Made by a program: the position numbers and the translations under genes
The notes under the pieces: generated by a model
Databases searched by the model: none
What the model was told of the DNA's origin: nothing
Seen by the model: only the letters and a program-made list of their open reading frames with translations
Shown here: piece after piece, positions 11,428 through 25,412 of the stretch
How positions within the stretch are numbered: position 1 is the first letter of the stretch
How the letters are laid out: every line of letters begins with the position of its first letter
Assembly: GCA_902786965.1 (NCBI GenBank)
Contig: CADAEJ010000004.1
Location: 1-34,374 of the forward strand
DNA: 34,374 bases
Direction: 5' to 3'
Origin: an uncultured Ruminococcus sp.
Lineage (GTDB): Bacteria; Bacillota; Clostridia; Oscillospirales; Ruminococcaceae

Positions 11428-11457
11428 AAAGCCTGAGAGCATAACGCTTTCAGGCTT
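11428..11457. terminator. Bidirectional terminator between convergent genes
   Basis: Arms AAAGCCTGA (11428-11436) and TCAGGCTT (11450-11457) with AGC/GCT inside; nearly the same hairpin as at 5717-5747. It overlaps the last codons of the minus-strand gene. Confidence 0.75.
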
Positions 11458-12208
11458 GTTTGTTTATTTCCGATGCTATATCAAGAGCTATCATCAGTTT
11501 TCCGATGCCGTGATTAGCTTCATTCAATCCTTCGGTCTCATAGCCGCTTTCTGCAAGGACATCACCTGCTTCGAGGAAATGATAAAGCTGAAATTTAAAA
11601 AAGTCGCACACTGCCTGCACTCCTGCAAGCTCCATTTCAACGGCTATACAACCCTCGTCCTTACGCCTGGCGACAAGTCCCTTTGTCTCACGCAGCATAG
11701 AATCCGTAGTCCACACCCTGCCCTTTACATATGGGATACCACGCTTTTCAAACAGGTCTGCAAGCTTGTCACAGTTCTTTATCTTTATGTAATCGTCAGG
11801 CGGTGCATAATAGTATGAAGCACCCTCGCCTCTATAACTTTCGGTCGGGATTATGAACCTGCCATTTGTCTTGTCATTATCAAGACTTCCGCAGGAGCCA
11901 AACATAACAAATGTCGATGCCCCCACCACCCAGTGAGCTTCATAACACATTCCCGATGCGACAGCTGAGCCTAAACCCGAAAGATAAAACGCAATATTCT
12001 CGTCCTTGTATTCAAGAGCATATATGGGTACATTTCCGTTACAGGCACCAATAACACCTATCTGTTTACACTCATAATTGTCGAGCAGATAATTATGCAG
12101 CTGCTGCGAAAACATGATAAGGCATGTATCAACGATATGTTTCTGCTTACCGTAAAAGCTCTCGCAATTAGTTATCGGTTCAGTTGCATCATAGCAATCA
12201 GTTATCAT
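11450..12208 (-). CDS. Nucleoside phosphorylase
   Basis: GAGGTG lies about 8 bases before the start. The 252-residue protein matches the PNP/UDP phosphorylase superfamily, which splits nucleosides with phosphate for salvage. Visible marks: IGVIGACNGNVPIYAL, the glycine turn LSGLGSAVASGMCYEAHW, VMFGSCGSLD, and the late VEMELAGVQAVCDFFKFQ, where the VEME motif binds the ribose hydroxyls. Whether it prefers purine or uridine nucleosides is not clear. It ends inside the shared terminator with the methyltransferase gene. It marks the left edge of ordinary sequence before the orphan-gene island. Confidence 0.88.
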   Translation of the reverse strand: MITDCYDATEPITNCESFYGKQKHIVDTCLIMFSQQLHNYLLDNYECKQIGVIGACNGNVPIYALEYKDENIAFYLSGLGSAVASGMCYEAHWVVGASTFVMFGSCGSLDNDKTNGRFIIPTESYRGEGASYYYAPPDDYIKIKNCDKLADLFEKRGIPYVKGRVWTTDSMLRETKGLVARRKDEGCIAVEMELAGVQAVCDFFKFQLYHFLEAGDVLAESGYETEGLNEANHGIGKLMIALDIASEINKQA

Positions 12209-12249
12209 TATATCTCACCTCGTCTATCTGGTTTTGATCATTATACCAC

Positions 12250-12407
12250 AGGCATGGGATATTTATACAAATATCCGATCTCATACTCTCGCAAGTCTCG
12301 CCCACTGATATCGGCTTATCATTACCATATTCTCAGCTGTCAGGGTCTGTCCATCGCAAGACTGGCTTGAGCTTCTCGATGACCCGAGATTCTATCAGCT
12401 CACGCAT
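12250..12407 (-). pseudogene. Relic of a paralogue of the 15216-15782 gene
   Basis: Read on the minus strand from 12407 the translation is MRELIESRVIEKLKPVLRW, TDPDS, a TGA, then EYGNDKPISVGETCESMRSD, ICINIP. It aligns along its length with MREFIEFNVIEKMKPLLQYT, NPESDGYGSDKPIAIGKTRE, TIRPDICITVP of the intact gene at 15216-15782. Only the C-terminal third remains and it contains one in-frame stop, so it is a decayed copy. It lies just downstream of the EEP-fold gene on the same strand. Confidence 0.85.
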
Positions 12408-12427
12408 CGTTATTATTTCTTTTTTGA

Positions 12428-13297
12428 TTAAAATTTAAGAGTACCTATCAGCATAGCATGGTCTGGATTTGGAGGTTGTATGCCTAATAAACGATCTCCA
12501 TTCTTATATATTTCTTTGGTACTCTTAGTAAAATCTCTTTCATATTTACAGTTCTCCATAAAACAGTTTTTGGTGATAAAATGATCTTCTGGTGCAGGAA
12601 TAAATTTTTTATCCCCATCCCAGCTATCCCCGTTCGGAGTGTATGGTGTATAATCACCTCTGTTGCAGGTAATCCGATTAAAATTCCACTCCTTTCTCGG
12701 CGTACCTCTTCTGTAATTGTTAAAGTCACCTGCTATCAATACACGAGCTTTATCACCTGCTTTTTTGTCTAAATGATAGTACACCATTTTCATCTCATTA
12801 TATCTCAGCTCAGCCTGTTGTATATAGAATTCTGTCAGATTGGTTTTGCCTTCAAGCACTTTATTTTGTGAAGTCATTGTTATTCTCACACCTGCCACCC
12901 ACAGTTTAAGTCTTCCCTTCCTTAATGGAATGATCAACAGGTTCGGTACATCTTCACTCTTGCTGCAATCCTGTGTGTAGATTTCTTTTTTTTCATTTTC
13001 CCACAGGTTTAGACTACTTTTTTTCCAAGCTATTAGTATTTCATTTACTCGTGGTTCTTTTTCATCCTCGTTTACCTGTGTATTTTTATCGTACATACTT
13101 TCTTTGGGATAGTAGTCATAGTCATTATCAGGAAAGGTTTTATTCAAAAAATTATTTGCATTCTCACAGAACACAAATTCTGTCAGTATGACTATATCCG
13201 CATCTTGTTCTTTGATCGCAGCGCCAACAAAATCAGGGATTATATTTTCCCCATCGCTTCTCAGATTTAGATTCCATTCCAGCACCTTAAGCTCCAT
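12428..13297 (-). CDS. Endonuclease/exonuclease/phosphatase-fold protein
   Basis: GGAGG stands 9 bases before the ATG. The 289-residue protein carries the EEP superfamily signature: VLEWNLNLRSD (metal-site Asn), VILTEFVF (catalytic Glu), a central VAGVRITMTS strand, LIAGDFNNYRRG (Asp/Asn pair) and PNPDHAMLIGTL at the end (the catalytic Asp-His pair). All key residues appear present, so a metal-dependent phosphodiesterase activity is likely; DNA, RNA, phosphoinositide or other substrates are possible in this family. It has no signal peptide. Its neighbours are an LRR protein upstream and a gene relic downstream. Confidence 0.8.
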   Translation of the reverse strand: MELKVLEWNLNLRSDGENIIPDFVGAAIKEQDADIVILTEFVFCENANNFLNKTFPDNDYDYYPKESMYDKNTQVNEDEKEPRVNEILIAWKKSSLNLWENEKKEIYTQDCSKSEDVPNLLIIPLRKGRLKLWVAGVRITMTSQNKVLEGKTNLTEFYIQQAELRYNEMKMVYYHLDKKAGDKARVLIAGDFNNYRRGTPRKEWNFNRITCNRGDYTPYTPNGDSWDGDKKFIPAPEDHFITKNCFMENCKYERDFTKSTKEIYKNGDRLLGIQPPNPDHAMLIGTLKF

Positions 13298-13440
13298 ATT
13301 ATATTACCTCCAAAATTAATCATTTGATGTATCACCGCAGTATTACTAACCAAATACAATATATCACATTTTTTCACATATTGCAATATGTCATAAAGTG
13401 AATATTACATACACCGTGGAGCTTATAGCGTGACAAAGAT

Positions 13441-13474
13441 AAATCCTATCCGAGCGTGATTTCGGATAGGATTT
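13441..13474 (-). terminator. Terminator after the LRR gene
   Basis: Perfect 13-bp stem AAATCCTATCCGA (13441-13453) with TCGGATAGGATTT (13462-13474). T-rich sequence follows on both strands, best placed to end the LRR transcript. Confidence 0.75.
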
Positions 13475-13567
13475 GTTTATTATTCATTTCTCAACCTTAT
13501 CTATATACCGTGTTTCGGGCTTGTCCGCACACAATGTGGTATGTGTAGCAAGGTAACCTTGTGTATC

Positions 13568-14947
13568 TTAAATATATTCACGCACCTCCCATATCGATAT
13601 TTTGCCTTTTGGTATGGTCAAGTATTCAAGTTTGCTGCAGCCTGAAAATGCCATCTCATCAACATGTTTAACACTATCGGGTATAATGATAGATGTCAGG
13701 TTGTCGCAGCCATCAAACGCATCATCATCAATGGTTTTGACACCATCAGGTATTACAAATTCGGTGTCTTTTATTCCAGCCGGCACCAGTATAAGTTCAG
13801 TTTTGTCTTTATTATATAAAGCACCGTTTTCAGAACAATAGTTGGAATTATTATCGTCAACATTAATAGATGTAAGGCTATCACAATCTTCAAATGCATA
13901 CGCGTAAATTATTGCAACACTGTTAGGTATATTGACGGTTTTTAGATTACAACAACCTTCAAACGCAGATTCTCCAATGTTTATAACACCATCAGAAATA
14001 ATGATAGATGTCAGGTTTTCGCAGGAGCTGAAAGCATGATTCCAAATGATCGTTACGCCATCAGGCACAACAAATTCGGTGTCTTTTCTTCCCGCAAGCA
14101 CTTTTATAAGTTCAGTTCTATGTTTATTGTATAAAGCTCCGTTTTCAGAGAGATAATAGCTGTTTTCGTCATCAACAATTATCGATTGCAGATTTTTGCA
14201 ATATGTAAAAGCGAAATCTCCTATGCTTATCACACTACTGGGAATATTGATAGACGTCAGGCTTGTGCACCCATCAAAAGCATGCTCCCCAATACTTTTA
14301 ACACTATTGGGTATATTGATGGATGTTAGGTTTACGCACTCAACAAATGCCCAATCACCAATGTCTGTAACACTATCGGGTATACTGATAGATGTCAGGC
14401 TTATGCAATCATAAAAAGCACTATCGCCAATGTTTCTAACGCTGTCGGGTATCACAAATTCGGTGTCTTCTATTCCGGGCGGCACTTGTATGAGTTCAGT
14501 TTTATTCTTATCATATAAAGCACCGTTTTCAGAGATATAATGATTGTTTTCCTTATCCACAATTATTTTATCAAGAGCATAACACCAGGTAAAAGCCCCC
14601 TTTCCTATACTCGATACGCTACTGGGTATAGTGATAGATGCCAGGCTTGCACAGCAGAAAAAAGCACACTTTCCAATGCTTATAACACTATTGGGTATAT
14701 TGATAGATGTCAGACTGTCGCAGCCGCTGAACGCACGCTCTCCAATGCTTGTAACACTATCGGGTATATTGATAGATGTCAGGTTTCTGCAGTGTTCAAA
14801 CGCACGCTCACCAATACTTGTAATACCGTTCGGTATTGTCACATCTCCGCCTTTGCCCTTATACTTTACAAGCACACGGTCTATCTCAAAATCGTTCATA
14901 TTTATAGGTGATCCTGTCGGTTTTGGCCCTGATTTAGATTTAATCAT
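13568..14947 (-). CDS. BspA-type leucine-rich repeat protein
   Basis: GAGGTG precedes the ATG. The 459-residue protein is almost entirely LRR_5 (Treponema pallidum/BspA) repeats of about 23 residues with the core SVTSIGERAFSGCDSLTSI. Three times the array is interrupted by a longer module of the form ENxxYxSENGALYxKxxTEL, then VxxGxxDTEFVxPDxV (near residues 125-175, 245-295 and 360-410). Such proteins usually mediate binding to host or bacterial surfaces, but this one begins MIKSKSGPKPTGSPINM, with no signal peptide, anchor or dockerin, so it may act inside the cell or depend on another export route. No internal stop is seen. The strand and low GC fit the island. Confidence 0.9.
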   Translation of the reverse strand: MIKSKSGPKPTGSPINMNDFEIDRVLVKYKGKGGDVTIPNGITSIGERAFEHCRNLTSINIPDSVTSIGERAFSGCDSLTSINIPNSVISIGKCAFFCCASLASITIPSSVSSIGKGAFTWCYALDKIIVDKENNHYISENGALYDKNKTELIQVPPGIEDTEFVIPDSVRNIGDSAFYDCISLTSISIPDSVTDIGDWAFVECVNLTSINIPNSVKSIGEHAFDGCTSLTSINIPSSVISIGDFAFTYCKNLQSIIVDDENSYYLSENGALYNKHRTELIKVLAGRKDTEFVVPDGVTIIWNHAFSSCENLTSIIISDGVINIGESAFEGCCNLKTVNIPNSVAIIYAYAFEDCDSLTSINVDDNNSNYCSENGALYNKDKTELILVPAGIKDTEFVIPDGVKTIDDDAFDGCDNLTSIIIPDSVKHVDEMAFSGCSKLEYLTIPKGKISIWEVREYI

Positions 14948-14995
14948 AATAACACCTCACTGTTTTCAACTTGTTATTTTTTATTTTGTTTATGC

Positions 14996-15122
14996 CGAAA
15001 ATTTTACCCTTCGATTAGATTGAAGATAACTGTTTTTAGATGATGCAAATATATATTAATTCTATGCACGACGCAGCTGCGCTCCGCAATTTGATGTCAG
15101 ATTCCATATTCTCCAAAATATA
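14996..15122 (-). pseudogene. Collapsed copy of the tails of two neighbouring genes
   Basis: Bases 15031-15122 match 17958-18050: the C-terminal codons of the 17989-18501 gene (translation LTSNCGAQLRRA versus LTSDCGALLRRA) and the intergenic spacer after it, with about six changes and a 7-base deletion. Bases 14996-15030 match the last codons and downstream of the 17398-17934 gene (about 17390-17430). The roughly 520 bp between these two parts, nearly the whole 17398-17934 gene, is missing here. It is therefore a duplicated two-gene segment reduced by deletion. Confidence 0.8.
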
Positions 15123-15148
15123 CTCCCCCGCACATTTGTGCGAGGGAG
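15123..15148 (-). terminator. Terminator after the 15216-15782 gene
   Basis: Arms CTCCCCCGCAC (15123-15133) and GTGCGAGGGAG (15138-15148) with one mismatch, then TATATTTT on the minus strand. Confidence 0.7.
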
Positions 15149-15215
15149 CTGTGTAAGTTCAATAGGCAAATATAATCATAAAACTGCTGGCATTTGAAAT
15201 TTTACAAGCGCATTT

Positions 15216-15782
15216 TTATTTTTCGGTCTGATATGCAGCTTCAGCTGCAGCGAAACGCTTATACCTCAATGGAACTGTAATGCATATATCGGGGCGAATG
15301 GTTTCCCTGGTTTTTCCGATCGCAATAGGCTTATCACTACCATAACCATCGCTTTCTGGGTTAGTATACTGCAGCAGCGGCTTCATCTTTTCAATGACAT
15401 TAAATTCAATGAATTCCCTCATGTCCCGGGACTCGATGCCAGTCGCATAAACCTTGAAACAAGCTGGCATGCCGTTTTTGTATGTGCCGCCATAAGCCGT
15501 AGCATCCGTCATAAAATTGTAGATGTGCTCACAAACCCTTAAGTATACATTGCCGCTGCTGCCTGAATAAAATGGCTGTCCGAAAATACTGTTTAAATAA
15601 CATCCTGCGACTCTCCTGTCGTTCTCCCGCTGACAAATATCGAGGTAGTCTGGATGTAATTCCAGCGTCTGTGCAAGTTCAGGTGCAATTCTCCTGATCT
15701 TTTTTAAGCCTGCCTGACTTCGAGCAAACCGCTTGACCTTAGCAATGTAAACCTGTCTTTCTCTGCGTGTCATATTAGTCAT
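15216..15782 (-). CDS. Conserved hypothetical protein with a local relic paralogue
   Basis: GGGAGG lies about 8 bases before the ATG, and a TATAAT sits some 15 bases further up. The 188-residue product begins with a basic helix (MTRRERQVYIAKVKRFARSQ), continues with QTLELHPDYLDICQRENDRR and ends with a conserved stretch KPIAIGKTRETIRPDICITV. It has no signal or membrane segment. I recognise no family or catalytic motif; the basic N-terminus could bind nucleic acid, but that is guesswork. The decayed copy at 12250-12407 keeps the C-terminal third, which shows that this gene has been duplicated within the island. Confidence 0.65.
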   Translation of the reverse strand: MTNMTRRERQVYIAKVKRFARSQAGLKKIRRIAPELAQTLELHPDYLDICQRENDRRVAGCYLNSIFGQPFYSGSSGNVYLRVCEHIYNFMTDATAYGGTYKNGMPACFKVYATGIESRDMREFIEFNVIEKMKPLLQYTNPESDGYGSDKPIAIGKTRETIRPDICITVPLRYKRFAAAEAAYQTEK

Positions 15783-15884
15783 AAATAAATCCTCCCATAT
15801 GTATTATAATTTTCAGCAGCACTCTTTGCTGCTATCAATACGATACCACAGGAGGAACGATTTTCCCATAAAGCCTAAAAAACT

Positions 15885-16406
15885 TTATTTCTTTTTGTTA
15901 TTTTTCTTCTTTTCTTTGCTTTCGTCATCATAAAGTTTTCTAAAGCCGTTAAAGATAAGGTTCACCTTATCTTTTTTGTGCTCCACAAGTCCTTTATTGA
16001 CTAATTTCTCGATTGCTTCATCTATTTCTTTGTCTTTATATCCGTAGGTTTTGCCTTCTTTTTTCAATTCTTCAACTTCTATTTCTGCTCCTGGAGCTTT
16101 TCCCTCGAAAAGCAAAAGAAGAAATAATACTCTTTTGCAGTTTGTTGATATTTTCCTGTCTGAAATGTGGCTGATGGTAAGAATCAAATCCTTTATCTTT
16201 ATATAATCAAAAGTGATATTAAATTCTTTTGATATCACATCGCGATAATGCGTAGAAGGATTATTTTTCTGATTCAAAAGATTAGATACAGCCACCGTAG
16301 ATTCCATACCTATAATCTCAGCAAGCTTTTCATTGGTTATATACTTGTCTTTAAGTTTATTGATCCATTGCGGATCAATAAATTCGGTCAGTATTTTATC
16401 AGGCAT
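15885..16406 (-). CDS. Hypothetical protein with HTH-like N-terminal half
   Basis: AAAGGAGG lies 6 bases before the ATG at 16406. An alternative in-frame start at 16448 would add MSDKKTLNLKRRIF, a stretch also found before the 17989-18501 gene. The 173-residue product has a possible helix-turn-helix in its first 70 residues (DKYITNEKLAEIIGMESTVA, VSNLLNQKN) and a second winged-helix-like part (EIEVEELKKEGKTYGYKDKE, IDEAIEKLVNKGLVEHKKD), ending in a Lys/Asn tail KEKKKNNKKK. It may be a DNA-binding regulator of the island (inference). No enzyme motif is visible. Confidence 0.65.
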   Translation of the reverse strand: MPDKILTEFIDPQWINKLKDKYITNEKLAEIIGMESTVAVSNLLNQKNNPSTHYRDVISKEFNITFDYIKIKDLILTISHISDRKISTNCKRVLFLLLLFEGKAPGAEIEVEELKKEGKTYGYKDKEIDEAIEKLVNKGLVEHKKDKVNLIFNGFRKLYDDESKEKKKNNKKK

Positions 16407-16410
16407 AAAT

Positions 16411-16479
16411 ATCCTCCTTTTTAAATTTAGTGTCTTCTTGTCTGACATCTTATGTTTTCTTTTTTCAGCGAACACCTCC
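16411..16479 (-). repeat. Shared 5' module, copy A
   Basis: About 68 bp upstream of the 15885-16406 gene is roughly 90% identical to 18508-18576 upstream of the unrelated 17989-18501 gene. It includes the main Shine-Dalgarno site and the potential short coding stretch MSDKKTLNLKRRI. Confidence 0.85.
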
Positions 16480-16620
16480 TGTATTCACCATCATAATAGA
16501 ATTTAATTCCTGCCGAATCAAGATTATTGTCATATTCTACATTTTTAGAAAAGAATAAAATGCGATCAGCTACAAATTAATTATCTATATTACTAATATT
16601 TGAAGGTCTATAATAATAAC

Positions 16621-16851
16621 TTATCGGCATATTATATCCTCCCATTCTGAAGCGACATCTTTAGCTAATGCATTAATAATTTTAGCATTAAGTGAATCAG
16701 ATTTAATCAATTCAATATAAATAGGCTCTTTTGGCTTTTCGATTTTTGAATCTACAATCTCGCTTTTAATATTATTAGCTAAGAAAAATGTTTCCTCACT
16801 AGTTCTTTTGAATTCATCAGGGTTTATAAGATCAATCATCTTTATTAACAT
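16621..16851 (-). CDS. Small hypothetical protein (76 aa)
   Basis: I chose the ATG at 16851, 6 bases after GAGGTG; a GTG at 16860 overlaps that site. The product starts MLIKMIDLINPDEFKRTSEE and is acidic to neutral with no membrane segment or known motif. It overlaps the 3' end of the next gene upstream (16832-17065) by 20 bases, so the two are translationally coupled, the compact layout of a two-gene module such as a toxin-antitoxin or an adaptor pair. Neither member is recognised. Confidence 0.55.
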   Translation of the reverse strand: MLIKMIDLINPDEFKRTSEETFFLANNIKSEIVDSKIEKPKEPIYIELIKSDSLNAKIINALAKDVASEWEDIICR

Positions 16852-17065
16852 TAAATTCACCTCTAACTATATATTCAAGATAATCATAAATGACTTTCTT
16901 CAATATATTCTTTTTATCTGTCGGCAAAGCATTGAGTTCAAGATTAATACCATCTCTTAATTTGTCTAAATCGCAAAGACATGCTCTTTCCAATCTTCCA
17001 TCGAGATCTTTAAGCCCTCCTGTTTTAAATAAAGTAATAGTTTCAGATAGAATAAGTTTATGCAT
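16832..17065 (-). CDS. Small hypothetical protein (77 aa)
   Basis: AGGAGG lies 6 bases before the ATG. The product (MHKLILSETITLFKTGGLKD ... YLEYIVRGEFNVNKDD) is predicted mostly helical, with charged helices and two Cys residues (CLCDLDKL). It overlaps the following 76-residue gene, implying a coupled pair. It resembles the small helical effector-associated or immunity-like proteins found in accessory islands only in general character; no family assignment is possible. Confidence 0.55.
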   Translation of the reverse strand: MHKLILSETITLFKTGGLKDLDGRLERACLCDLDKLRDGINLELNALPTDKKNILKKVIYDYLEYIVRGEFNVNKDD

Positions 17066-17192
17066 AGATTACCTCCTATAGAAAGTTTAAACAATATAGT
17101 CTTTATATCTCTTGATGTTAATTTATACTCTACTTATGACTTCGATTAATTATTGTTAATTAAATAATTAATGAGTTCATGCACTATGTTAA

Positions 17193-17291
17193 TTATTTAC
17201 TATTTGCCTGGAAAACAGCTTCTATTATCGCTGATTTACTCTCAGTATCTTTCGAAGTGGTAGAATGTGTATGCAGATCGTAAAGCTTCAT
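17193..17291 (-). CDS. 32-residue ORF resembling the start of a PHP-domain enzyme
   Basis: A strong promoter and a GGGAG site 9 bases upstream precede MKLYDLHTHSTTSKDTESKS and 12 more codons, then TAA. DLHTHST is the hallmark first motif of PHP phosphoesterases, which normally runs into SDG and continues for 200 or more residues. Here the frame ends after 32, in AT-rich sequence with a 10-bp inverted repeat (17145-17154 and 17163-17172). It is either the truncated head of a PHP gene or a small peptide in its own right. Confidence 0.5.
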   Translation of the reverse strand: MKLYDLHTHSTTSKDTESKSAIIEAVFQANSK

Positions 17292-17313
17292 AAAATCACT
17301 CCCTCTTAGTTCT

Positions 17314-17341
17314 ATTATAATACGGAATACCACAATGTCAA
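17314..17341 (-). promoter_or_regulatory. Strong promoter for the 32-residue ORF
   Basis: Minus strand: TTGACA (17336-17341), a 16-bp spacer and TATAAT (17314-17319). Transcripts from it could also reach the 16.6-17.1 kb small genes. Confidence 0.85.
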
Positions 17342-17397
17342 CAGCAGATCGTGTTTACAATGCACGTCATCAGTAAAAAATATCAATGCCGCAATTT

Positions 17398-17934
17398 TTA
17401 CCTTTCGATTATATGTGATTGAAGATAATCCTTGAAATCATCATAAGAAAACCTCCTTTCCAGATGAAAAATAATTGGTATGCACACATCAGCTATCTGC
17501 TGAACGCTGAAATTCAGGATATGATCCATTGTGTCCTGGAAATATGCATCCATCAATTCATAGCGTATCAGGCATCCGTTGAATATGTCGCCATACTCCT
17601 CATCGAAAAAGTAATTGTGTTCAAAAAGGGTGTTGCAGTCCCACGGCAGATGCATATTCATATAATTGCACATTCTCGCTGCCTTAACTGCCCTTTCCTC
17701 TGTTTCTGCAACAGGCTGGCAGAAATATGACTTACAATAACAATGCTCATTCATAAATATCACAGTAGTCTCGATACGACCGCCAATTACATCTTCGATA
17801 TTACACGACAGATATATTTTATCGACATCCTTTAAAGGAGTGATTTTTCCTGCCTCATTGAGCAGGGTGTATGGGATATGTTCCGCTGTCAGATAATCAA
17901 TAAACCTCTTTTTTGCTTCTGTTTTAGTCATCAT
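17398..17934 (-). CDS. Hypothetical protein, YbjN-like in character
   Basis: AAAGGAG lies 9 bases before the ATG. The 178-residue product (MMTKTEAKKRFIDYLTAEHI ...) alternates short strands and helices, with EERAVKAARMCNYMNMHLPW in the middle, a pattern that recalls YbjN/type III chaperone-like folds (FNGCLIRYELMDAYFQDTMD). That fold link is tentative. No signal, membrane segment or catalytic motif is visible. It follows the 17989-18501 gene by 54 bases and probably shares its transcript. The same gene order once existed near 15 kb, where only the tails of both genes survive. Confidence 0.6.
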   Translation of the reverse strand: MMTKTEAKKRFIDYLTAEHIPYTLLNEAGKITPLKDVDKIYLSCNIEDVIGGRIETTVIFMNEHCYCKSYFCQPVAETEERAVKAARMCNYMNMHLPWDCNTLFEHNYFFDEEYGDIFNGCLIRYELMDAYFQDTMDHILNFSVQQIADVCIPIIFHLERRFSYDDFKDYLQSHIIER

Positions 17935-17988
17935 AATTTCGATCTCCTTTGCATAAATGTTTTTAGATGATGCGAATATATATTAATC

Positions 17989-18501
17989 CTATGCACGGCG
18001 CAGCAGCGCTCCGCAATCTGATGTCAGATATACATATCCGTATTCTCCAAAATATGCGTCACAACAATCACTGCCCTGTTCGCCAAGATTCACAACATAT
18101 GCGAATAGATAATCGTCTTCAAGTCTTTGTGTTGACCAGTCTTCTTCATACGGCGATACATACAGAAATGTCAGCATTGTGATCGGTTCATTATCACCTC
18201 TTTCAAGATTACTTATCTCCACATTTCCCGTGTCAACAGCACAAACCGAACCCATTATCTTGGTTTCGATAACATGATAAACATAATTCCCCGTCTCCTC
18301 TTCAAACGCCCTCACCTCCTCTTCATAAAGCTCATCATAGTCAATGGTATCTATACAACCAAATGACCATCCTGATACTCGGTAGCTGTAATAAAGCTTT
18401 TCGTCTTCAAGATTCTTTAAGATCTTTGGGTTAAGGTCAAACTTTTCCTGTAATACCCTCATTCTTGATAAGGCTTCTTTGTGCATCTTTGACTTTTCCA
18501 T
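17989..18501 (-). CDS. Hypothetical acidic protein
   Basis: AAAAAGGAGG lies 9 bases before the ATG at 18501; an in-frame ATG at 18546 would add MSDKKTLYLKRRISI, similar to the N-terminal extension possible for the 15885-16406 gene. The 170-residue product is very rich in Asp, Glu and Tyr (YDELYEEEVRAFEEETGNYV, VSPYEEDWSTQRLEDDYLFA) and ends DCGALLRRA. Acidity of this kind is common among immunity proteins and DNA mimics, but no family is recognised. A collapsed copy of its last codons lies at 15064-15122. Confidence 0.6.
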   Translation of the reverse strand: MEKSKMHKEALSRMRVLQEKFDLNPKILKNLEDEKLYYSYRVSGWSFGCIDTIDYDELYEEEVRAFEEETGNYVYHVIETKIMGSVCAVDTGNVEISNLERGDNEPITMLTFLYVSPYEEDWSTQRLEDDYLFAYVVNLGEQGSDCCDAYFGEYGYVYLTSDCGALLRRA

Positions 18502-18507
18502 AATACT

Positions 18508-18576
18508 TATCCTCCTTTTTAAATACAGTGTTTTCTTGTCTGACATCTTATGTTTTCTTTTTCATTGACCACCTCC
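18508..18576 (-). repeat. Shared 5' module, copy B
   Basis: Counterpart of 16411-16479. Differences in the possible coding stretch are mostly synonymous (AAG/AAA, CTA/CTG), with one Asn/Tyr change. Confidence 0.85.
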
Positions 18577-18599
18577 CTATAGCCAATTCATTGCAACAA

Positions 18600-18628
18600 A
18601 AAAGAATTGCCGGTCAGACAATTCTTTT
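18600..18628 (-). terminator. Terminator after the metallophosphoesterase gene
   Basis: Arms AAAAGAATTG (18600-18609) and CAATTCTTTT (18619-18628), then TTTTTTG on the minus strand. Confidence 0.85.
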
Positions 18629-18691
18629 CATTAATATTATGTAGTTTTTCATCTTCAATTCTTTGAAGATACATCCTTCATGCACTCGAAA

Positions 18692-19405
18692 TTAATCTGT
18701 TTCCTCACATATTTCATCATAATCCTCAAACATGATACGAATATCACATTCATAACTTTCGACATGATAATGACCTGCATACCATCCTTCTTTGAGTTCA
18801 AGCCTGTCATAAATTGACTGAAGCCATTTCTCCGTGCTCTTATCCACACTCTGCTGGTCAATTCCCGGAATAAAACTCCAGACCGGTTCCGCCTCTATCG
18901 GAGCAGTGTGCGACAAGACAATATCTATCTCCCATTGTCTGGACTCAAGCTGTTTTTCAACATAGACCTTTGTTTCTTCATCGGGCTGCTCTGAATCAAA
19001 CCACTGAAGTCCGCTGCTCAGGCGATAAAACTTATCAACGCTGTATGCCCCGCCAATCGCAATTACAGATTTTCCATTAAAGTCATAAATCTCACCATCC
19101 TTAGCGAAGAGGATATTGGGATAATCTTCCTCAGCATACACCAAACCACCTTTCCATAGGATTTCTTCGTAATCGCCATTGGCTTCCAATGGTCTCGCTT
19201 CATGATTCCCGTGGATACAGAAAAGCGTGATAGGCAAGCCTAAAAGCTCATTCTTTAAATCCTCGTCTCTTTTATCAAGATAGTAATTAATCCCGGCGTC
19301 ACCGAGTATAATCATAACATCTTCGATATCCGTTCCGTTCAATTCGCAGAATTCAGCGATTCTCGAAAAGTCGCCGTGAGTGTCTCCTGTAATGTAATAA
19401 TGCAT
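18692..19405 (-). CDS. Calcineurin-like metallophosphoesterase
   Basis: The Met at 19405 follows CAGGAGG by 8 bases and begins the fold directly; a Met 10 codons earlier (19435) is less likely. All five metallophosphatase motifs are present in 237 residues: ITGDTHGD, IILGDAG, CIHGNHE, VLSHTAP and AGHYH. The enzyme should be an active, cytoplasmic two-metal phosphoesterase; members act on proteins, nucleotides, cyclic nucleotides or diadenosine compounds, so the substrate is open. It lies 95 bases downstream of the sigma-like/WYL gene on the same strand and is closed by its own terminator, so the two make a natural regulator-effector pair. Confidence 0.9.
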   Translation of the reverse strand: MHYYITGDTHGDFSRIAEFCELNGTDIEDVMIILGDAGINYYLDKRDEDLKNELLGLPITLFCIHGNHEARPLEANGDYEEILWKGGLVYAEEDYPNILFAKDGEIYDFNGKSVIAIGGAYSVDKFYRLSSGLQWFDSEQPDEETKVYVEKQLESRQWEIDIVLSHTAPIEAEPVWSFIPGIDQQSVDKSTEKWLQSIYDRLELKEGWYAGHYHVESYECDIRIMFEDYDEICEETD

Positions 19406-19499
19406 AGTGTTTTCCTCCTGTTTTTTCTGTACCATAGAAACATTTTAACATGGGCTTGCGGGTTACACTTATATTATGGAGGAATTCTTGTTCTAAAAA

Positions 19500-21128
19500 T
19501 TAAAGATATAGGTCTCCCACTTTCTTTATCTCCTCCCGTATCTTCTTTCTGATATTCTCATCCATGATCTCCACCCTCACTCCGTACTGCATTGCCCAGT
19601 GAACGATCATATTCGGTGATGTCCTTACTTTCACAATATCATATCCTACTTCATTACCCTTTTCATCTTTTCCGACAACCTCTTTCACCTTCTCGTAATG
19701 GTCGCCGAACCAGTCGTGAATAATCGTATAATCAGTATTTTTTATCTTGATCCTGATATCCTCCGGCTCATCATATGCCATATTCATATGCTCTGACATA
19801 TATTTTTCCGGATCCCAGCAAGCGTTAAATATCGGGAGTCCCTCAAAACTGCAGACCTCAATGGGAATTATCTTCCCATTTTCATCTTTGGCGATCTCTA
19901 AATCCGACATCAGATCCACACGATAATGCCAGATTCCCTTATCATAAGTCTTTAAGCCTATGCAGAAAAAATCGTCATGATATACCACCAGATGATATGG
20001 AGAAAGAGTACGGATATATTCAGAGGTCGGGATCATTTTTTTATCGTCTGTATACCTGTTATACCTGAAACGGATCTGCCCAAAGTTATTCACCGCGTAT
20101 TGTATTATTTTCAGGTTTTCAGCTAACTGTTCCCTTTTTTCTGCCCTTTGCCCTGAAAGCCTGCCGTGAATTGCTTTCGGATCAAATCTGATCTTCTCTC
20201 CATCCCAAAACGGTGTACGGTAATATGCGCTTGCAGTCCCCACAAGTTTTCTTATGAGCTCCGCCTTTTCGGCTGATGATAACATACTTGAAAAGCACAC
20301 CTGCCCTATCAGCTGATCGAGCTGTGAATCGGTAAATGTATGTACATACGAAAAGCCCGTAATATCAGGTGTTTTCCCGCAATAATCCTTGTTGATCTTC
20401 TTATTTAACCGATCCTCTTTGTATCCGTCATACTTCACACGGTATTTTTCTTCGTTTTCACCGTATTCCAACGGGTCAAGTTCCAGAAGGATGTCCTCAA
20501 GCGTGCTTGTGATAGTATTCGGTGATTCTACTGGTACGCCATTATCATATTTTGCAATGCGGTATATCTTCAGCAGATTCATAAGCTCATCTTTTGAAAG
20601 GCTTTTACTTTCATCAGTAAGTGTTTTCAATATATCCAAAATCTGAAGCGTTCTTCGCTCTGCACTGTATTTTCCGCGATCAGGAGCATCATCACGCACC
20701 TGAAAACGGTCTTCTGTTTTCTGTCTTGCGACTTTCGTTTCCGGGATTTCTTCCAATGATGCTCTTATTATACCGGTCTTTTTACCCGTTTTTGAGCGCC
20801 CTGTCAAACCAAGCGGATTTAAAAGCACATCAAGCTCTTTAGAGATCTCACCATCAATATAATAGGTAGCATATGTCGTAAATTTACCTTTTTCCGAATC
20901 ATGATTTTTCGTCGCATGTATAAAGCCCTGCCATCCCGCCATATACAGATCCTCTTCTATTTCATTCTTAAGAGAGTCTGTCATCTCTAATTTTCGCAGC
21001 TTTTTCCAACAGCATTCATGGATATACTTTTTATAATTCTCATACAGTTCTTCCCAAGCCTTGTTATCACCAGATTTTGTCCTCTCGATAAGGGCTTTTA
21101 CCCCAGGATCTGATAAATATTTATTCAT
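19500..21128 (-). CDS. Sigma-70 region 2-like domain fused to an HTH-WYL regulator
   Basis: The ATG at 21128 follows AAAAGGAG by 7 bases; a GTG directly before it is also possible. In 542 residues the order is unusual. Residues 12-100 resemble sigma region 2 (IERTKSGDNKAWEELYENYK, EDLYMAGWQGFIHATKNHDS, GKFTTYATYYIDGEISKELD), including the DLxxxGxxG and F-x-TYA-x-Y-I core-binding and -10 signature. Residues 155-235 look like the HTH that normally precedes WYL (ERRTLQILDILKTLTDESKS). Residues 340-415 are a WYL-type domain (RTLSPYHLVVYHDDFFCIGL) and 465-542 a WCX-like extension. WYL domains sense ligands or nucleic acid and control many defence loci (established). No region 4 is seen, so if it works as a sigma factor the -35 contact must come from elsewhere. 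Confidence 0.8.
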   Translation of the reverse strand: MNKYLSDPGVKALIERTKSGDNKAWEELYENYKKYIHECCWKKLRKLEMTDSLKNEIEEDLYMAGWQGFIHATKNHDSEKGKFTTYATYYIDGEISKELDVLLNPLGLTGRSKTGKKTGIIRASLEEIPETKVARQKTEDRFQVRDDAPDRGKYSAERRTLQILDILKTLTDESKSLSKDELMNLLKIYRIAKYDNGVPVESPNTITSTLEDILLELDPLEYGENEEKYRVKYDGYKEDRLNKKINKDYCGKTPDITGFSYVHTFTDSQLDQLIGQVCFSSMLSSAEKAELIRKLVGTASAYYRTPFWDGEKIRFDPKAIHGRLSGQRAEKREQLAENLKIIQYAVNNFGQIRFRYNRYTDDKKMIPTSEYIRTLSPYHLVVYHDDFFCIGLKTYDKGIWHYRVDLMSDLEIAKDENGKIIPIEVCSFEGLPIFNACWDPEKYMSEHMNMAYDEPEDIRIKIKNTDYTIIHDWFGDHYEKVKEVVGKDEKGNEVGYDIVKVRTSPNMIVHWAMQYGVRVEIMDENIRKKIREEIKKVGDLYL

Positions 21129-21131
21129 CAC

Positions 21132-21401
21132 TATTCTCCTTTTCTGAATAATCTTATCAAAGAAAAAACAGGCTTTTTCATTTGTTATCGAATTAACTAA
21201 TCAGTTGTGCTCATAGTTTTCAAACAGTATAACACGAGCAAAGTAAATTGTCAATTGTTTTCCAATATCAACAGCAGCCTGCACAATTCGTACAAACTGC
21301 TATTGGTTACTGCTGTGTCATAATCGTCTTGTTTACGCCGTTTCTGAACAAATCTAGGTTCTTCGCTAAGCACTCGGTTCTTAAATGTGTTTTTTCTTTT
21401 T
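21132..21401. other. Gene-free AT-rich interval upstream of the sigma/WYL gene
   Basis: No open frame with a ribosome binding site was found. It presumably holds the promoter of the sigma/WYL gene, but I see no convincing pair of boxes. Confidence 0.4.
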
Positions 21402-21560
21402 AATTCACCCTTGTAATATTCTTACGATAGTTTACCGGGGTATCATACCCAATAGCATAGCAGGGACGATGATTGTTGTAAAAATCAACATAGTTTTCAA
21501 GGACCTCTTTAAACTCGGCTTTTGTTTGGCACTCATCCACCCTGAAATCTATATACAGTT
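21402..21560 (-). mobile_element. IS3-family transposase remnant (C-terminus)
   Basis: On the minus strand the frame reads FRVDECQTKAEFKEVLENYV, DFYNNHRPCYAIGYDTPVNY, RKNITRVN and a stop. This is the end of an IS3/IS150-type OrfB integrase: the rve domain tail with FYNNHRP and a YDTPVNY ending. A stop lies just upstream and the DDE core is gone, so only about 50 codons persist. The fragment ends 18 bases from the 3' end of the AAA/DUF4143 gene. Confidence 0.85.
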
Positions 21561-21577
21561 ATTCATTCATGGACAAA

Positions 21578-22930
21578 CTACAGCAATCCCGTCATATATA
21601 GCGGCAGATATGTGATCCCGTTTTCCTGTTTGAGATCACTCGCATGGAGCACATACGGGATATGCGTCTGGGCAGCATATTTCTGTATAAACTTATTCAG
21701 AGAAGACAAAGTATAGTTTTTGCCTGACTTAACTTCTATTGGCGAAATATTGTGCCTGTTGCTTATCTTGCTTTTGGCAAGCAGGAAATCTATCTCCATT
21801 CTGGAATCCTTGTCATCCCTTGAAGAATTGCAGTAGAAGAATAATTTGTGCCCGCCGGCTGCAAGCATTTGAGCGACAATATTCTCGATTATCATGCCCA
21901 TATTGACTTCGAGCTTATCAAGCAAAAGTTTTTTATAGACCTCTTCACTGACTATGCCGTTTTCATCAAAGCTATGACTGACAAGCAATCCCGTGTCAGC
22001 CATATAACATTTGAGCAAAGTGCGGTCACGGTTCAGATTCAAACCTACATTCGGCTCGGTTGCGTTGTAGCAGTTGTTGACTATCATTGCATCGGACAGC
22101 CAGAACATAGCATCACGATAGTCATCAAAACGAGCGCCCTTTTCAATAGAGGAAAGCTTGAAATGACGATTCTGATTTTTCAGCTGCGATGGAAGCTCAT
22201 CAAATATAGCCTCAACTTTCATCGCATCATTGCCGGCATGCTTTCGTATGTCATCACGGTACAGTTTGAGTATTCGTCTCTTTGCTTTGTCCACCTTATC
22301 GAAATCTTTGCTGTCAGCAAAAGCCTGTACCGCCTGCGGCATACCACCAACTATCATATACTGTCTGAACAGATCCATCGCCTTTCGGTGCAGTGCCTGT
22401 CCGAGCGGCAATTTCTTATCAAAGCAGTTCCGTATAAGAGGATACATCGTTTCGTCGCCAACAGCCCAAAGGAATTCTTCGAAGTCCATCGGATACATGT
22501 TCAACGGTTCTTCTTCAGAAGGAATGAGTATGTTTTCGACATTCTTGCGGATCGAGATCAGAGAACCGGTTTCGACATAATCGTATCTTCCGTCTGCTAC
22601 AAGGTACTTTATTGCACTGCGCGCTCTCGGGAAGAGCTGTACCTCATCAAGTATTATCAGCGATTCACGCTTGTACAGCTTGGTGTTATAGTAAGTGGAG
22701 AGCTTAAGAAAGAATGTATCCATATCGGATAAGTCATGTATAAAGATGTCCTTGACCTGCTCGTCTGCAAGGTTAAAGTCGATCAGAATATAACTTTTAT
22801 ACTCTTTCTTTGCAAACTCTTCAACAACATAGCTTTTACCTACACGTCTTGCGCCCTGTACGAGCAAAGCGCTTTCTCCGTTTTCAGTATCTTTCCATTG
22901 TTTGAGCTTGTCATAGATCTTTCTTTTCAT
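21578..22930 (-). CDS. AAA_14/DUF4143 ATPase
   Basis: GAGGTGG lies about 8 bases before the ATG. The 450-residue protein is full length for this family. Residues 1-130 are the AAA_14 P-loop domain: Walker A LVQGARRVGKS, Walker B LIILDEVQLF and the sensor ETGSLIS. The second half is DUF4143 with a nuclease-like end, MEIDFLLAK followed by ISPIEVKSGK, the E-D-x(n)-E-x-K pattern of PD-(D/E)xK folds. Members are abundant in Bacteroidota, Clostridia and archaea, often in variable regions, and their role is unresolved. The promoter carries three phased palindromes. The opposite strand has a long open frame that I regard as a shadow. Confidence 0.92.
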   Translation of the reverse strand: MKRKIYDKLKQWKDTENGESALLVQGARRVGKSYVVEEFAKKEYKSYILIDFNLADEQVKDIFIHDLSDMDTFFLKLSTYYNTKLYKRESLIILDEVQLFPRARSAIKYLVADGRYDYVETGSLISIRKNVENILIPSEEEPLNMYPMDFEEFLWAVGDETMYPLIRNCFDKKLPLGQALHRKAMDLFRQYMIVGGMPQAVQAFADSKDFDKVDKAKRRILKLYRDDIRKHAGNDAMKVEAIFDELPSQLKNQNRHFKLSSIEKGARFDDYRDAMFWLSDAMIVNNCYNATEPNVGLNLNRDRTLLKCYMADTGLLVSHSFDENGIVSEEVYKKLLLDKLEVNMGMIIENIVAQMLAAGGHKLFFYCNSSRDDKDSRMEIDFLLAKSKISNRHNISPIEVKSGKNYTLSSLNKFIQKYAAQTHIPYVLHASDLKQENGITYLPLYMTGLL

Positions 22931-22963
22931 TGTGCACCACCTCGATAGTTATGTGTTTTTGTT

Positions 22964-22992
22964 AGTATAACACAAATCCAGATTTTTATCAA
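22964..22992 (-). promoter_or_regulatory. Promoter of the AAA/DUF4143 gene
   Basis: Minus strand: TTGATA (22987-22992), a 17-bp spacer and TATACT (22964-22969). The first palindrome (22974-22985) fills the spacer. Confidence 0.8.
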
Positions 22993-23051
22993 GGTCAAAA
23001 CTACACAAATCACGATTTTTATTTTGCATAATAATACACAAATCAAGATTT
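22974..23051. promoter_or_regulatory. Three phased palindromic operators
   Basis: AAATCNNGATTT, each preceded by ACAC on the plus strand, occurs at 22974-22985, 23007-23018 and 23040-23051. The starts are exactly 33 bp apart, about three helical turns. The first lies between the -35 and -10 boxes of the ATPase gene. Co-operative repression is the simple reading; the binding protein is unknown. Confidence 0.8.
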
Positions 23052-23213
23052 TTGCTTTGCCGTGTCTACTTTTATTATAGCAACATTGTCGCCGAGCGAG
23101 TCTGCGTTGCGATCATTATATGTTTTGACCAATCGCTCCAGCCACTCAACGGTAAAAGACTGCGACTTGCTGGCTGCGGTAAAGTTTGTATTTTTCTTAG
23201 GGGCATTCTGCAT
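23043..23213 (-). CDS. Small hypothetical protein (56 aa)
   Basis: AAGGA lies 7 bases before the ATG. The frame (MQNAPKKNTNFTAASKSQSF ... NVAIIKVDTAKQKS) is soluble, with one amphipathic helix (VEWLERLVKTYNDR). The stop codon lies inside the third palindromic operator of the ATPase gene, so the two are adjacent on the same strand and probably transcriptionally linked. It may be a truncated gene start. No family was recognised. Confidence 0.45.
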   Translation of the reverse strand: MQNAPKKNTNFTAASKSQSFTVEWLERLVKTYNDRNADSLGDNVAIIKVDTAKQKS

Positions 23214-23246
23214 TTTGCTATCCTTATTGTAGTATCAGTTTGTTTC

Positions 23247-23431
23247 TGACCATGAACTTTGAGTTCATGGTTGCAAAGCCCGCAGGAACGGGCTTTTCTT
23301 TGTTTTTGCAGTGGTTTTTTTATATATTTTTATCAGTTTTTCAGCACAAAACGCTCGGAAGCAGCGTGTTTTCGGCGTTTTGGAGCATGAACTCAAAATT
23401 CATGGTCAACGACTTTGGAGTCTGCTATAAT
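23247..23431 (+). promoter_or_regulatory. Nested inverted repeats and promoter before the 23479 gene
   Basis: A 21-bp sequence at 23247-23267 returns inverted at 23388-23408 with one mismatch; each copy is itself palindromic (ACCATGAACT at 23249-23258 with AGTTCATGGT at 23262-23271). Between them are AAGCCCG/CGGGCTT (23276-23282, 23289-23295) followed by T-rich sequence, and CAAAACGC/GCGTTTTG (23346-23353, 23375-23382). TATAAT is at 23426-23431 and the second 21-mer covers the -35 position. This could be a paired operator, or a hairpin-rich site of the mobile element. Confidence 0.65.
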
Positions 23432-24343: not shown

Positions 24344-25412
24344 ATGAAAAAGAACAAAAAAAGAATGCCCGGACAGCTCAGCTCGGGCAAATTCAGAAAA
24401 CAGCTGTTTATTGGTTACGATAACAACGGTAAAAGAATAGTAAAGTCATTTTTAGCTAAAACTATGTGGGAGGCAGAGAAGATGGCTGCCGATTATAAGG
24501 CGAGACATGGCGTAGGTATTGATCCTGATGAGCTGACGGTAGCTGCGGCGCTGGAGAAATACATAAATTCCCGCAAAGACATAATCGCTCCTTCGACTCT
24601 CAACGGTTATAACATAATCCTGAACAACAGACTCCAGTCGATCATGCTGACAAAGATATCCGAGCTGAAGATACTGGACGTTCAGGCTGCGGTCAATGCC
24701 GATTACAGAGACAAGGGCAGTTCAAGAAAGACGCTTAAATCCGCATTAAGCCTTATAAACAGTGCTCTGGTTGCACAGGGCTATGACTATCATCTCTGCA
24801 AAAGGATCACGATCCCTGCAGCAAAAGCGGTGAAAAAAGAACTTCCGTCAGCGAGAGAAGTAATAAACGCTATCAAGGGTACCGAGTTTGAACTGCCTTG
24901 CCTGCTGGCAATGTGGCTCTCGCTCAGAGTGTCAGAGGTAAGAGGTCTGAAATACAGCGACATATCAAAGGATCACTCTCATATCACTGTCTGCCGCACT
25001 CGTGTATATCTTGGCGTTGAGAAAGACGAAAAGCGTGATGTTACCAAAAACGAGGGAAGTAACCGCACGATCAGCCTGCCTCCGTATCTTTACATCAGAT
25101 GACTACATAGTTGATAGGAGCTATAATCAGGTTTCGCAGAACTTCCACAGGTACATGGCAAGAAACGGCATCGTTATAACATTTCATCAGCTCCGTCATC
25201 TGTTCGCTACATCAGCTAATGATCTGGGTGTTGCCGATGAGTATATCCAGAAGCTTGGCGGCTGGGCATCAAATAATATACTCAAGCAAGTATATACGCA
25301 CACTACAAAGCCCCTTGAGGACAGATATCAGCAGATGATCGACGATTACTTTCTCGGAATACTGCATGATAAAGATGCTGAAAACAACGGTAATACGGTA
25401 GAAAACGGCTGA
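24344..25412 (+). pseudogene. Tyrosine recombinase (integrase), broken by deletion-frameshift
   Basis: GAAAGGA lies 9 bases before the ATG. The first half (24344-25102) has the N-terminal DNA-binding parts (SGKFRKQLFIGYDNNGKRIV; AALEKYINSRKDIIAPSTLN) and the first catalytic Arg in LSLRVSEVRGLKYSDI. After LPPYLY at 25094 the frame shifts and ends at 25102. The second half resumes at 25095 in another frame with SDDYIVDRSYNQVSQNF and carries HQLRH, LGGWAS and the Tyr region QVYTHTT. About 10-25 residues normally found between the halves are missing. All catalytic boxes exist but not in one frame, so the enzyme is very likely dead and the element fixed. The family is that of Tn916-like and phage integrases. 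Confidence 0.9.
25095..25109 (+). repeat. 15-bp repeat, right copy
   Basis: Same 15 bases as at 1476-1490; here it directly follows the 97-bp repeat. Confidence 0.7.

Follow-up and report, generated by a model that had tools for sequence, protein, structure and literature searches.

A 34,374-nucleotide stretch of DNA from an uncultured Ruminococcus sp. (contig CADAEJ010000004.1 of assembly GCA_902786965.1; we call the whole stretch the window) encodes a protein in which a sigma-70 region 2 is fused to a WYL transcriptional regulator. The fusion protein has 542 amino acids and lies, as originally predicted, at 19500..21128; it is encoded on the minus strand (stop codon 19500-19502, ATG at 21128). 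Its family is uncommon but conserved: the sigma part is visible at 22 loci in 21 genomes, with the two parts fused at 20 loci and split at 2. We put the probability at about 50% that the protein is a single-protein, signal-responsive sigma-like factor that activates its own phosphoesterase operon. This reading is supported by the domain identities, by the conservation of the fusion, by a split form with a fuller sigma factor and by the gene neighbourhood. The fusion may represent a gene switch that carries its sensor and a polymerase subunit in one protein.

Results

The N-terminal domain is a sigma-70 region 2 by fold and by sequence. It spans residues 1-103 (20820..21128, minus strand), with helices at 7-18, 22-45, 51-75 and 83-103. 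Taken alone, the window sequence is suggestive of a sigma identity, and it is the homologues that decide. In a Pfam scan of the whole protein, Sigma70_r2 matches residues 59-98 (E 7e-4, 19.7 bits, below the cut-off of 24) and HTH_16 matches residues 12-62 (E 2e-4, 21.8 bits, just below the cut-off of 22). When the N-terminus is scanned alone the scores rise to 23.1 bits for Sigma70_r2 and to 24.7 bits for HTH_16, which then passes its cut-off. Many NCBIfam sigma models match the N-terminal ~100 residues, all of them below their cut-offs, the best being a SigF/SigG model (1e-4).

A profile of 21 N-termini (19 fused and 2 split, with locus L124 excluded) matches 93 distinct PDB sequences at E ≤ 1; the 60 matches listed are all sigma factors, and the best is SigF (1l0o, 7.6e-17). 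At E ≤ 1, Pfam finds Sigma70_r2 in all 21 of these N-termini and HTH_16 in 7 of them, and a scan of whole proteins finds Sigma70_r2 in 18 of 19 fused rows. The Sigma70_r2 cut-off is passed by three of the eight sigma-bearing proteins scanned (L026, 2.6e-9; L114, 2.7e-8; L117, 1.3e-5). The structure model of residues 1-115 has a predicted local distance difference test score (pLDDT) of 87.7. Judged by title and chain, 48 of the 50 Foldseek matches listed for this N-terminal model are sigma factors or polymerase complexes, and the remaining two are a designed scaffold (3les). The top match, a sigma factor, has a TMq of 0.70, a root-mean-square deviation of 2.2 and a probability of 1.00 at E 2.1e-3. 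Hence the proposed region 2 survives a structural comparison, and the homologue profile, the Pfam results on 21 N-termini and Foldseek together rule out a chance match.

The core motif at about residues 60-95 is preserved across the 21 N-termini. T85, an aromatic residue at 86 and D or E at 60 occur in 21 of 21, and G65 in 20 of 21; we take these positions to be equivalent to T429, Y430, D403 and G408 of sigma70. The N-termini of L087, L118, L119, L122 and L125 are short and diverged, matching a hidden Markov model (HMM) of the family's sigma domain at 5.5e-7 to 4.2e-9. This HMM was built from 5 of the 22 loci, and the other 17 match it at 2e-41 to 5.5e-7.

The rest of the protein is a regulator of the helix-turn-helix (HTH), WYL and WCX type, as had been proposed. 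The WYL domain at residues 337-412 (19893..20120, minus strand) matches PF13280 at E 1e-7, with 32.2 bits against a Pfam cut-off of 21.8, and the PADLOC WYL model at 1.3e-17. Pfam finds WYL at E ≤ 1 in all 21 rows of an alignment of 19 fused proteins and 2 split WYL proteins. The WCX-like C-terminal domain at residues 456-541 (19506..19763, minus strand) is assigned from the strand and helix pattern of the model and from Foldseek; PF25583 (WCX) matches 7 of 21 homologues at E ≤ 1, with a best value of 0.0023, and does not match the window protein. With the full-length model, Foldseek finds DriD (6e-10) and PafBC (1e-9), and also CapW and BrxR.

Between the sigma and WYL domains lies a degenerate winged HTH (residues 155-235; 20424..20666, minus strand). 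No Pfam HTH model matched these residues; the assignment comes from the model, which has helices at 156-170, 179-194 and 203-217 and a strand at 231-234, and from alignment with the winged HTH of sigma-less WYL proteins. The recognition helix of the window protein (202-217) contains neither K nor R. Its mean net charge is -1.1 in the 22 sigma-linked proteins versus +1.6 in 45 sigma-less ones (Mann-Whitney p 1e-7, a statistic that ignores kinship and includes some near-duplicates; one sigma-less row without the region was dropped), and the mean number of basic residues is 1.6 versus 3.6. A negative net charge occurs in 16 of the 22 sigma-linked proteins, the window protein included, and in 1 of the 45 sigma-less ones. 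The sigma-less proteins of L092-L095, L097 and L100 have charges of -1 to +2.

Changing R211 and R214 of PafB together (R201 and R204 in PafC) is described, in the parts of the source available to us, as abolishing binding of single-stranded DNA (ssDNA) (PMC11804915). The two PafC arginines align, weakly and locally (E 0.44), with an R-L-D-R of the sigma-less L048 protein. By this mapping, R403 occupies the first matching column in 22 of 22 sigma-linked proteins; at the second place, 34 of 46 sigma-less proteins carry R and 9 of them carry L. H401 is found in 22 of 22 sigma-linked proteins versus 6 of 46 sigma-less ones.

The fusion is not confined to the window. Its own genome (2.61 Mb, 125 contigs) has a single full copy of the gene. 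A first scan of GTDB contigs gave four loci, fused in L023 and L024 and present as separate genes, sigma first, in L025 and L026. In the split loci the sigma gene ends 2 bp (L025) and 13 bp (L026) before the WYL gene. The L026 sigma protein passes the NCBIfam model TIGR02937 over residues 3-183 (46.4 versus 42.9 bits), with Pfam showing region 2 only, and the L025 sigma protein matches region 4 at 3.7e-5 (23.6 bits, half a bit below the Pfam cut-off of 24.1). A region 4 signal is seen only in these two split homologues. With 20 fused loci, and adjacent genes in the other 2, an assembly error or frameshift is ruled out as the cause of the fusion.

Samples at several taxonomic ranks were then searched with an alignment. 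Among 29 genomes of the own genus and 396 of the own family, all matches outside the window (E ≤ 1e-20) start at model position 123 or later, in the WYL half, and the fusion is found in the window only. Nine of 397 genomes from the family of genome G442 have a match at 1e-40 or better, the fusions being those of G442 and four others. In the order of G441, 14 of 188 genomes have a match, one of which (G942) is cut by a contig end. A sample of 391 genomes from the class gave three matches at 1e-60, the own genome and two that, from their contig number and their position, look like G962 and G902 again, and in 338 genomes from the phylum the own genome was the only match.

One could also argue that the N-terminal part is a common, non-sigma extension of WYL proteins. 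This is ruled out by two results: none of 46 sigma-less WYL rows matches the family sigma HMM (at E ≤ 1 or at E ≤ 10), and in a tree of 36 rows, the root of which is not known, the sigma-linked proteins form one side of a branch with support 100/99, with 14 sigma-less proteins on the opposite side. The closest relative of the window protein in this tree is the protein of L088 (66%). The split genes of L025 and L026 group with the fusion of L091 (94/76), and the tree needs a minimum of two switches between the joined and the split state.

The regulators precede a shared pool of genes. Pool families were defined from the same 22 loci, and the counts are same-strand HMM matches within 10 kb downstream, with shorter sequence available at many loci. 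The orphan family c2 lies downstream in 16 of 22 loci, and so do the metallophosphoesterase families c3, c5 or c21 (16 of 22). One of these enzyme families or the HAD nucleotidase family c6 is found in 18 of 22, and at least one of c2, c3, c5, c21 and c6 in all 22. Upstream of the regulators we found no match to c3, c5 or c21, where upstream sequence is short or absent at some loci. In other genomes, too, the fusion stands ahead of phosphoesterase-rich gene sets. According to a simple open reading frame (ORF) caller, the regulator and the next gene share an 8-bp overlap in 6 of 22 loci.

The association also holds when the orphan family is used as the query. In the order of G441, a c2 query detects the family in 12 of 188 genomes, at 13 places, all of them 0.9-4.6 kb downstream of, and on the same strand as, a gene or remnant of the regulator family. 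In G942 and G960 only the WYL end of the regulator remains at the contig edge, and a sigma part would lie outside the sequence. Genomes with the regulator (14 of 188) and genomes with c2 (12 of 188) overlap in 11 cases (hypergeometric 2e-14); the regulator occurs without c2 in G919, G947 and G978. A Paenibacillus plasmid also carries c2; within 18.7 kb, an incomplete gene table shows no annotation as WYL or sigma.

Further pool or neighbour genes encode HAD_SAK_2, HD-domain, DUF6994, SpoVK-like AAA, NT5C and uncharacterised proteins. The HAD_SAK_2 gene (Swiss Army Knife RNA repair) stands directly 3' of the WYL gene in L026, and the c3 member of L025 resembles an Ap4A phosphatase below the cut-off. 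A Pfam scan of 26 proteins from homologous loci, which leaves many neighbours outside it, gave no match to a ligase. A PADLOC search of ten pool proteins gave only AAA-type matches, all for one protein. An AAA protein of about 950 amino acids recurs beside sigma-WYL sets (L098, 9381-12218; L090, 12149-15007; L091, 6514-9357), and the copy in L098 scores above the cut-off of the SpoVK model.

In the window the fusion gene is followed on the minus strand by a calcineurin-like metallophosphoesterase of 237 amino acids, a member of family c21 (18692..19405; PF00149 1.2e-10), with a likely start at ATG 19405. The gene had been described as intact and contains D-x-H, GD, GNHE and GHxH residues, which we take to be the metallophosphoesterase motif. 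It is 83% identical over 234 amino acids to a gene of the L089 locus. Behind it lies a terminator-like hairpin (18599..18629, minus strand; -13.2 kcal/mol, z -3.55), which a pattern scan did not list. Beyond the hairpin, on the same strand, follow an uncharacterised c20 protein (17989..18546, with a likely true start MEKSKMH at 18501), which is 54% identical over 142 amino acids to the product of a gene from sigma-WYL locus L091, and an uncharacterised protein of 178 amino acids related to c7 (17398..17934; c7 HMM 8e-11). The gene set of the window therefore reads sigma-WYL, metallophosphoesterase, hairpin, c20 and c7-like, without c2.

The original prediction described the fusion and the metallophosphoesterase as a pair that ends at a terminator and heads an island of orphan genes. 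The pair and the hairpin are there. By way of correction, the two genes beyond the hairpin are also pool members, and upstream of the pair, on the same strand, there is a gene for an AAA_14/DUF4143 ATPase (21578..22930; PADLOC candidate PDC-S01, 5e-119). In L026/L098, a gene 51% identical to it precedes the split pair. In the window, between the ATPase gene and the fusion gene, lies a sigmaA-like promoter, TTGACA-N17-TATACT (21226..21254, minus strand; a consensus match only). Because the match to the sigmaA type is good, a basal supply of the regulator by the housekeeping polymerase is plausible.

Several other features of the region are worth recording. Each end of the c20 gene has a 92% repeat (15026-15102 and 17953-18029; 16405-16464 and 18503-18562). 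The repeated ends flank another pair of genes (15216-15782; 15885-16475), and the second copy looks as though its middle part had been exchanged. A short minus-strand ORF (21400-21540) that lies upstream of the fusion gene resembles by eye the C-terminus of an IS3-type transposase. Within the island, at 11450-13297 and on the same strand, are a protein resembling nucleoside phosphorylases (PNP_UDP_1, 9e-19) and a weak match to endonuclease/exonuclease/phosphatase (0.006, below the cut-off). The 97 nucleotides with which the contig starts (1-97) recur exactly at 24998-25094, in the 3' portion of an ORF resembling tyrosine recombinases (24344-25102; XerA model 1e-5, below the cut-off). This suggests that the genome holds more than one recombinase-like copy.

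The island (11450-23300) has 38.6% GC versus 46.4% in the remaining window and was likely acquired by transfer. A phage or plasmid origin was rejected, as no relative was confirmed among viral contigs or phages, and plasmids gave two WYL-only matches (24-27%). Integration at the nearby tRNA-Ser was also rejected: the end of the tRNA is not repeated as an exact 13-mer in the window or in the contig at 34-52 kb.

Discussion

On how the protein would engage core polymerase and open a promoter, on its ligand and gating, and on its targets and purpose, we infer the following. A signal, a nucleic acid or a nucleotide, would bind the WYL/WCX part, and region 2 would be freed or oriented as a result. 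The N-terminal region 2 would then bind core RNA polymerase and open the -10 element. The winged HTH between them would be a connector, or else a weak reader of upstream DNA that replaces sigma region 4. The activated factor would drive an operon encoding phosphoesterases, nucleotidases and partner proteins, the role of which is most likely a response to nucleic-acid or nucleotide damage or conflict. It had been suggested that the neighbouring metallophosphoesterase makes or destroys the ligand. The phosphoesterases may equally be effectors, since c3, c5, c21 and c6 turn up repeatedly in the pool and often stand several genes further on than the position directly behind the regulator.

Several observations weigh against the sigma-like factor. 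The Foldseek E-values of the N-terminal model are all 1e-3 or higher, the full-length model has a modest pLDDT of 69, and position 89, presumably the equivalent of W433 in sigma70, varies among the N-termini. Pfam and NCBIfam find no sigma region 4 in the window protein, nor does region 4 occur among the Pfam families listed (25 of 27) for the 19 fused and 2 split WYL rows. A test for a shared promoter motif upstream of 21 regulators gave p values of 0.055-0.29. The second of the two PafBC arginine positions is a leucine (L406) in 22 of 22 sigma-linked proteins, as mapped by the weak alignment above, and therefore the ligand may not be ssDNA. Lastly, the recognition helices of the fused proteins of L087, L091, L118, L119, L122 and L125 are neutral or positive (0 to +2), so a loss of DNA reading is not general in the family. 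A stricter version of the proposal, a signal-gated sigma factor that recognizes only the -10 element of one operon for phosphoesterases acting on nucleic acids or nucleotides, with an HTH that no longer reads DNA and without region 4, is a tentative one, and we would sooner bet against it.

Other roles can be imagined for a region 2 on a WYL protein. The sigma piece could dock a WYL activator on the polymerase, where it would work together with the housekeeping sigma factor in the manner of PafBC sigma adaptation. PafBC and DriD are indeed described, in the portions of the sources available (PMC11804915 among them), as WYL activators that touch sigma-bound polymerase, and the proteins of L087, L118, L119, L122, L124 and L125 have three or four basic residues left in their recognition helices. 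We nevertheless consider this docking role unlikely. It is established that region 2 of two sigma factors would compete for one clamp site; moreover, 16 of 22 proteins, that of the window included, have a recognition helix with a negative net charge, and the sigma partner of the split form reaches into region 4.

The extension of the split partner into region 4 is equally awkward for the idea that the sigma piece is a decoy, which on a signal occupies the clamp and stops housekeeping transcription, leading to dormancy or defence. A region 2 without region 4 could conceivably block the clamp, and WYL regulators have been linked to defence in the part of the survey available to us (PMC4012209). 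The fusion heads a multi-gene set, though, instead of standing alone, and in the PADLOC search only one of ten pool proteins had matches, of the AAA type. We regard a decoy as improbable. Hardly more probable is that region 2 no longer binds polymerase and now serves an ordinary WYL regulator as an added part for dimerisation or DNA binding. The five short and diverged N-termini speak for it, but the motif at about residues 60-95 is kept across 21 N-termini, and the apparent degeneration lies in the HTH helix instead, in 16 of 22 proteins.

If the stricter, -10-only version is real, then a stepwise change would be visible among present-day loci, from a sigma-less, DNA-binding WYL activator to a regulator with a separate sigma factor (L025 and L026) and on to a sigma factor in one protein (20 loci). 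The route from activator to sigma factor becomes testable, as does the question of whether region 2 alone can serve as a sigma factor when another domain replaces region 4. A conserved fusion of this kind would also link nucleic-acid sensing directly to the polymerase. The gene set may be older than the sigma domain, because pool genes also follow the sigma-less WYL genes of L092, L094, L095 and L100. Isolated C-terminal WYL fragments lie near pool genes in L091 (2818-3033) and L096 (4760-5089), a possible sign that gene sets are being remodelled.

Sigma factors with a fused sensor and WYL regulators that act on polymerase are both known; in the open-access literature, as far as its texts were available, we found no paper joining a WYL and a sigma domain, and an earlier description elsewhere is possible. 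The accessible part of a survey lists WYL fusions to enzymes and other domains and none to a sigma factor (PMC4012209). A survey of WYL architectures made for PafBC shows, in the part available, only classes of at least 100 sequences, and a rare fusion would therefore not appear in it. The term "WYL" occurs 0 times in the work on CorE (PMC8999054). An operon type rich in phosphoesterases, which is carried by a limited set of Clostridia, was not found described in the literature searched.

The nearest sequence relatives of the N-terminal domain are FliA/WhiG and SigF/SigG, sigma factors that have no WYL domain. T4 gp55 is a sigma factor without region 4, and an entry of gp55 with polymerase is among the Foldseek matches listed for the full-length model. 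SigO-RsoA of Bacillus, as described in the text available, is a precedent for sigma regions on separate chains, comparable to the split in L025 and L026. To our knowledge, neither SigO-RsoA nor T4 gp55 has a fused sensor domain. CARF/WYL regulators of defence and RNA-repair genes also place WYL beside nucleic-acid enzymes, as HAD_SAK_2 does in L026.

CorE, ECF41 and OrbS resemble the fusion in that a sensor domain sits on the sigma chain, according to the available part of the literature; for CorE, regulation by a metal-sensing extension is described (PMC8999054). Extracytoplasmic function sigma factors with such an extension consist of sigma2, sigma4 and the extension, whereas in the fusion a sigma4 was not found and the other part is a complete WYL regulator. 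WYL proteins are described as sensing ssDNA in DNA-damage responses, again in the parts of the sources available (PMC11804915 among them). PafBC of mycobacteria and DriD of Caulobacter, the best structural matches of the full model, share its HTH-WYL-WCX layout. Of the paired arginines of PafBC the fusion keeps one, as R403, and has L406 in place of the other, given the weak alignment. Unlike the fusion, both PafBC and DriD have been described with this layout alone, whereas the Ruminococcus protein and its relatives carry a sigma domain in front of it.

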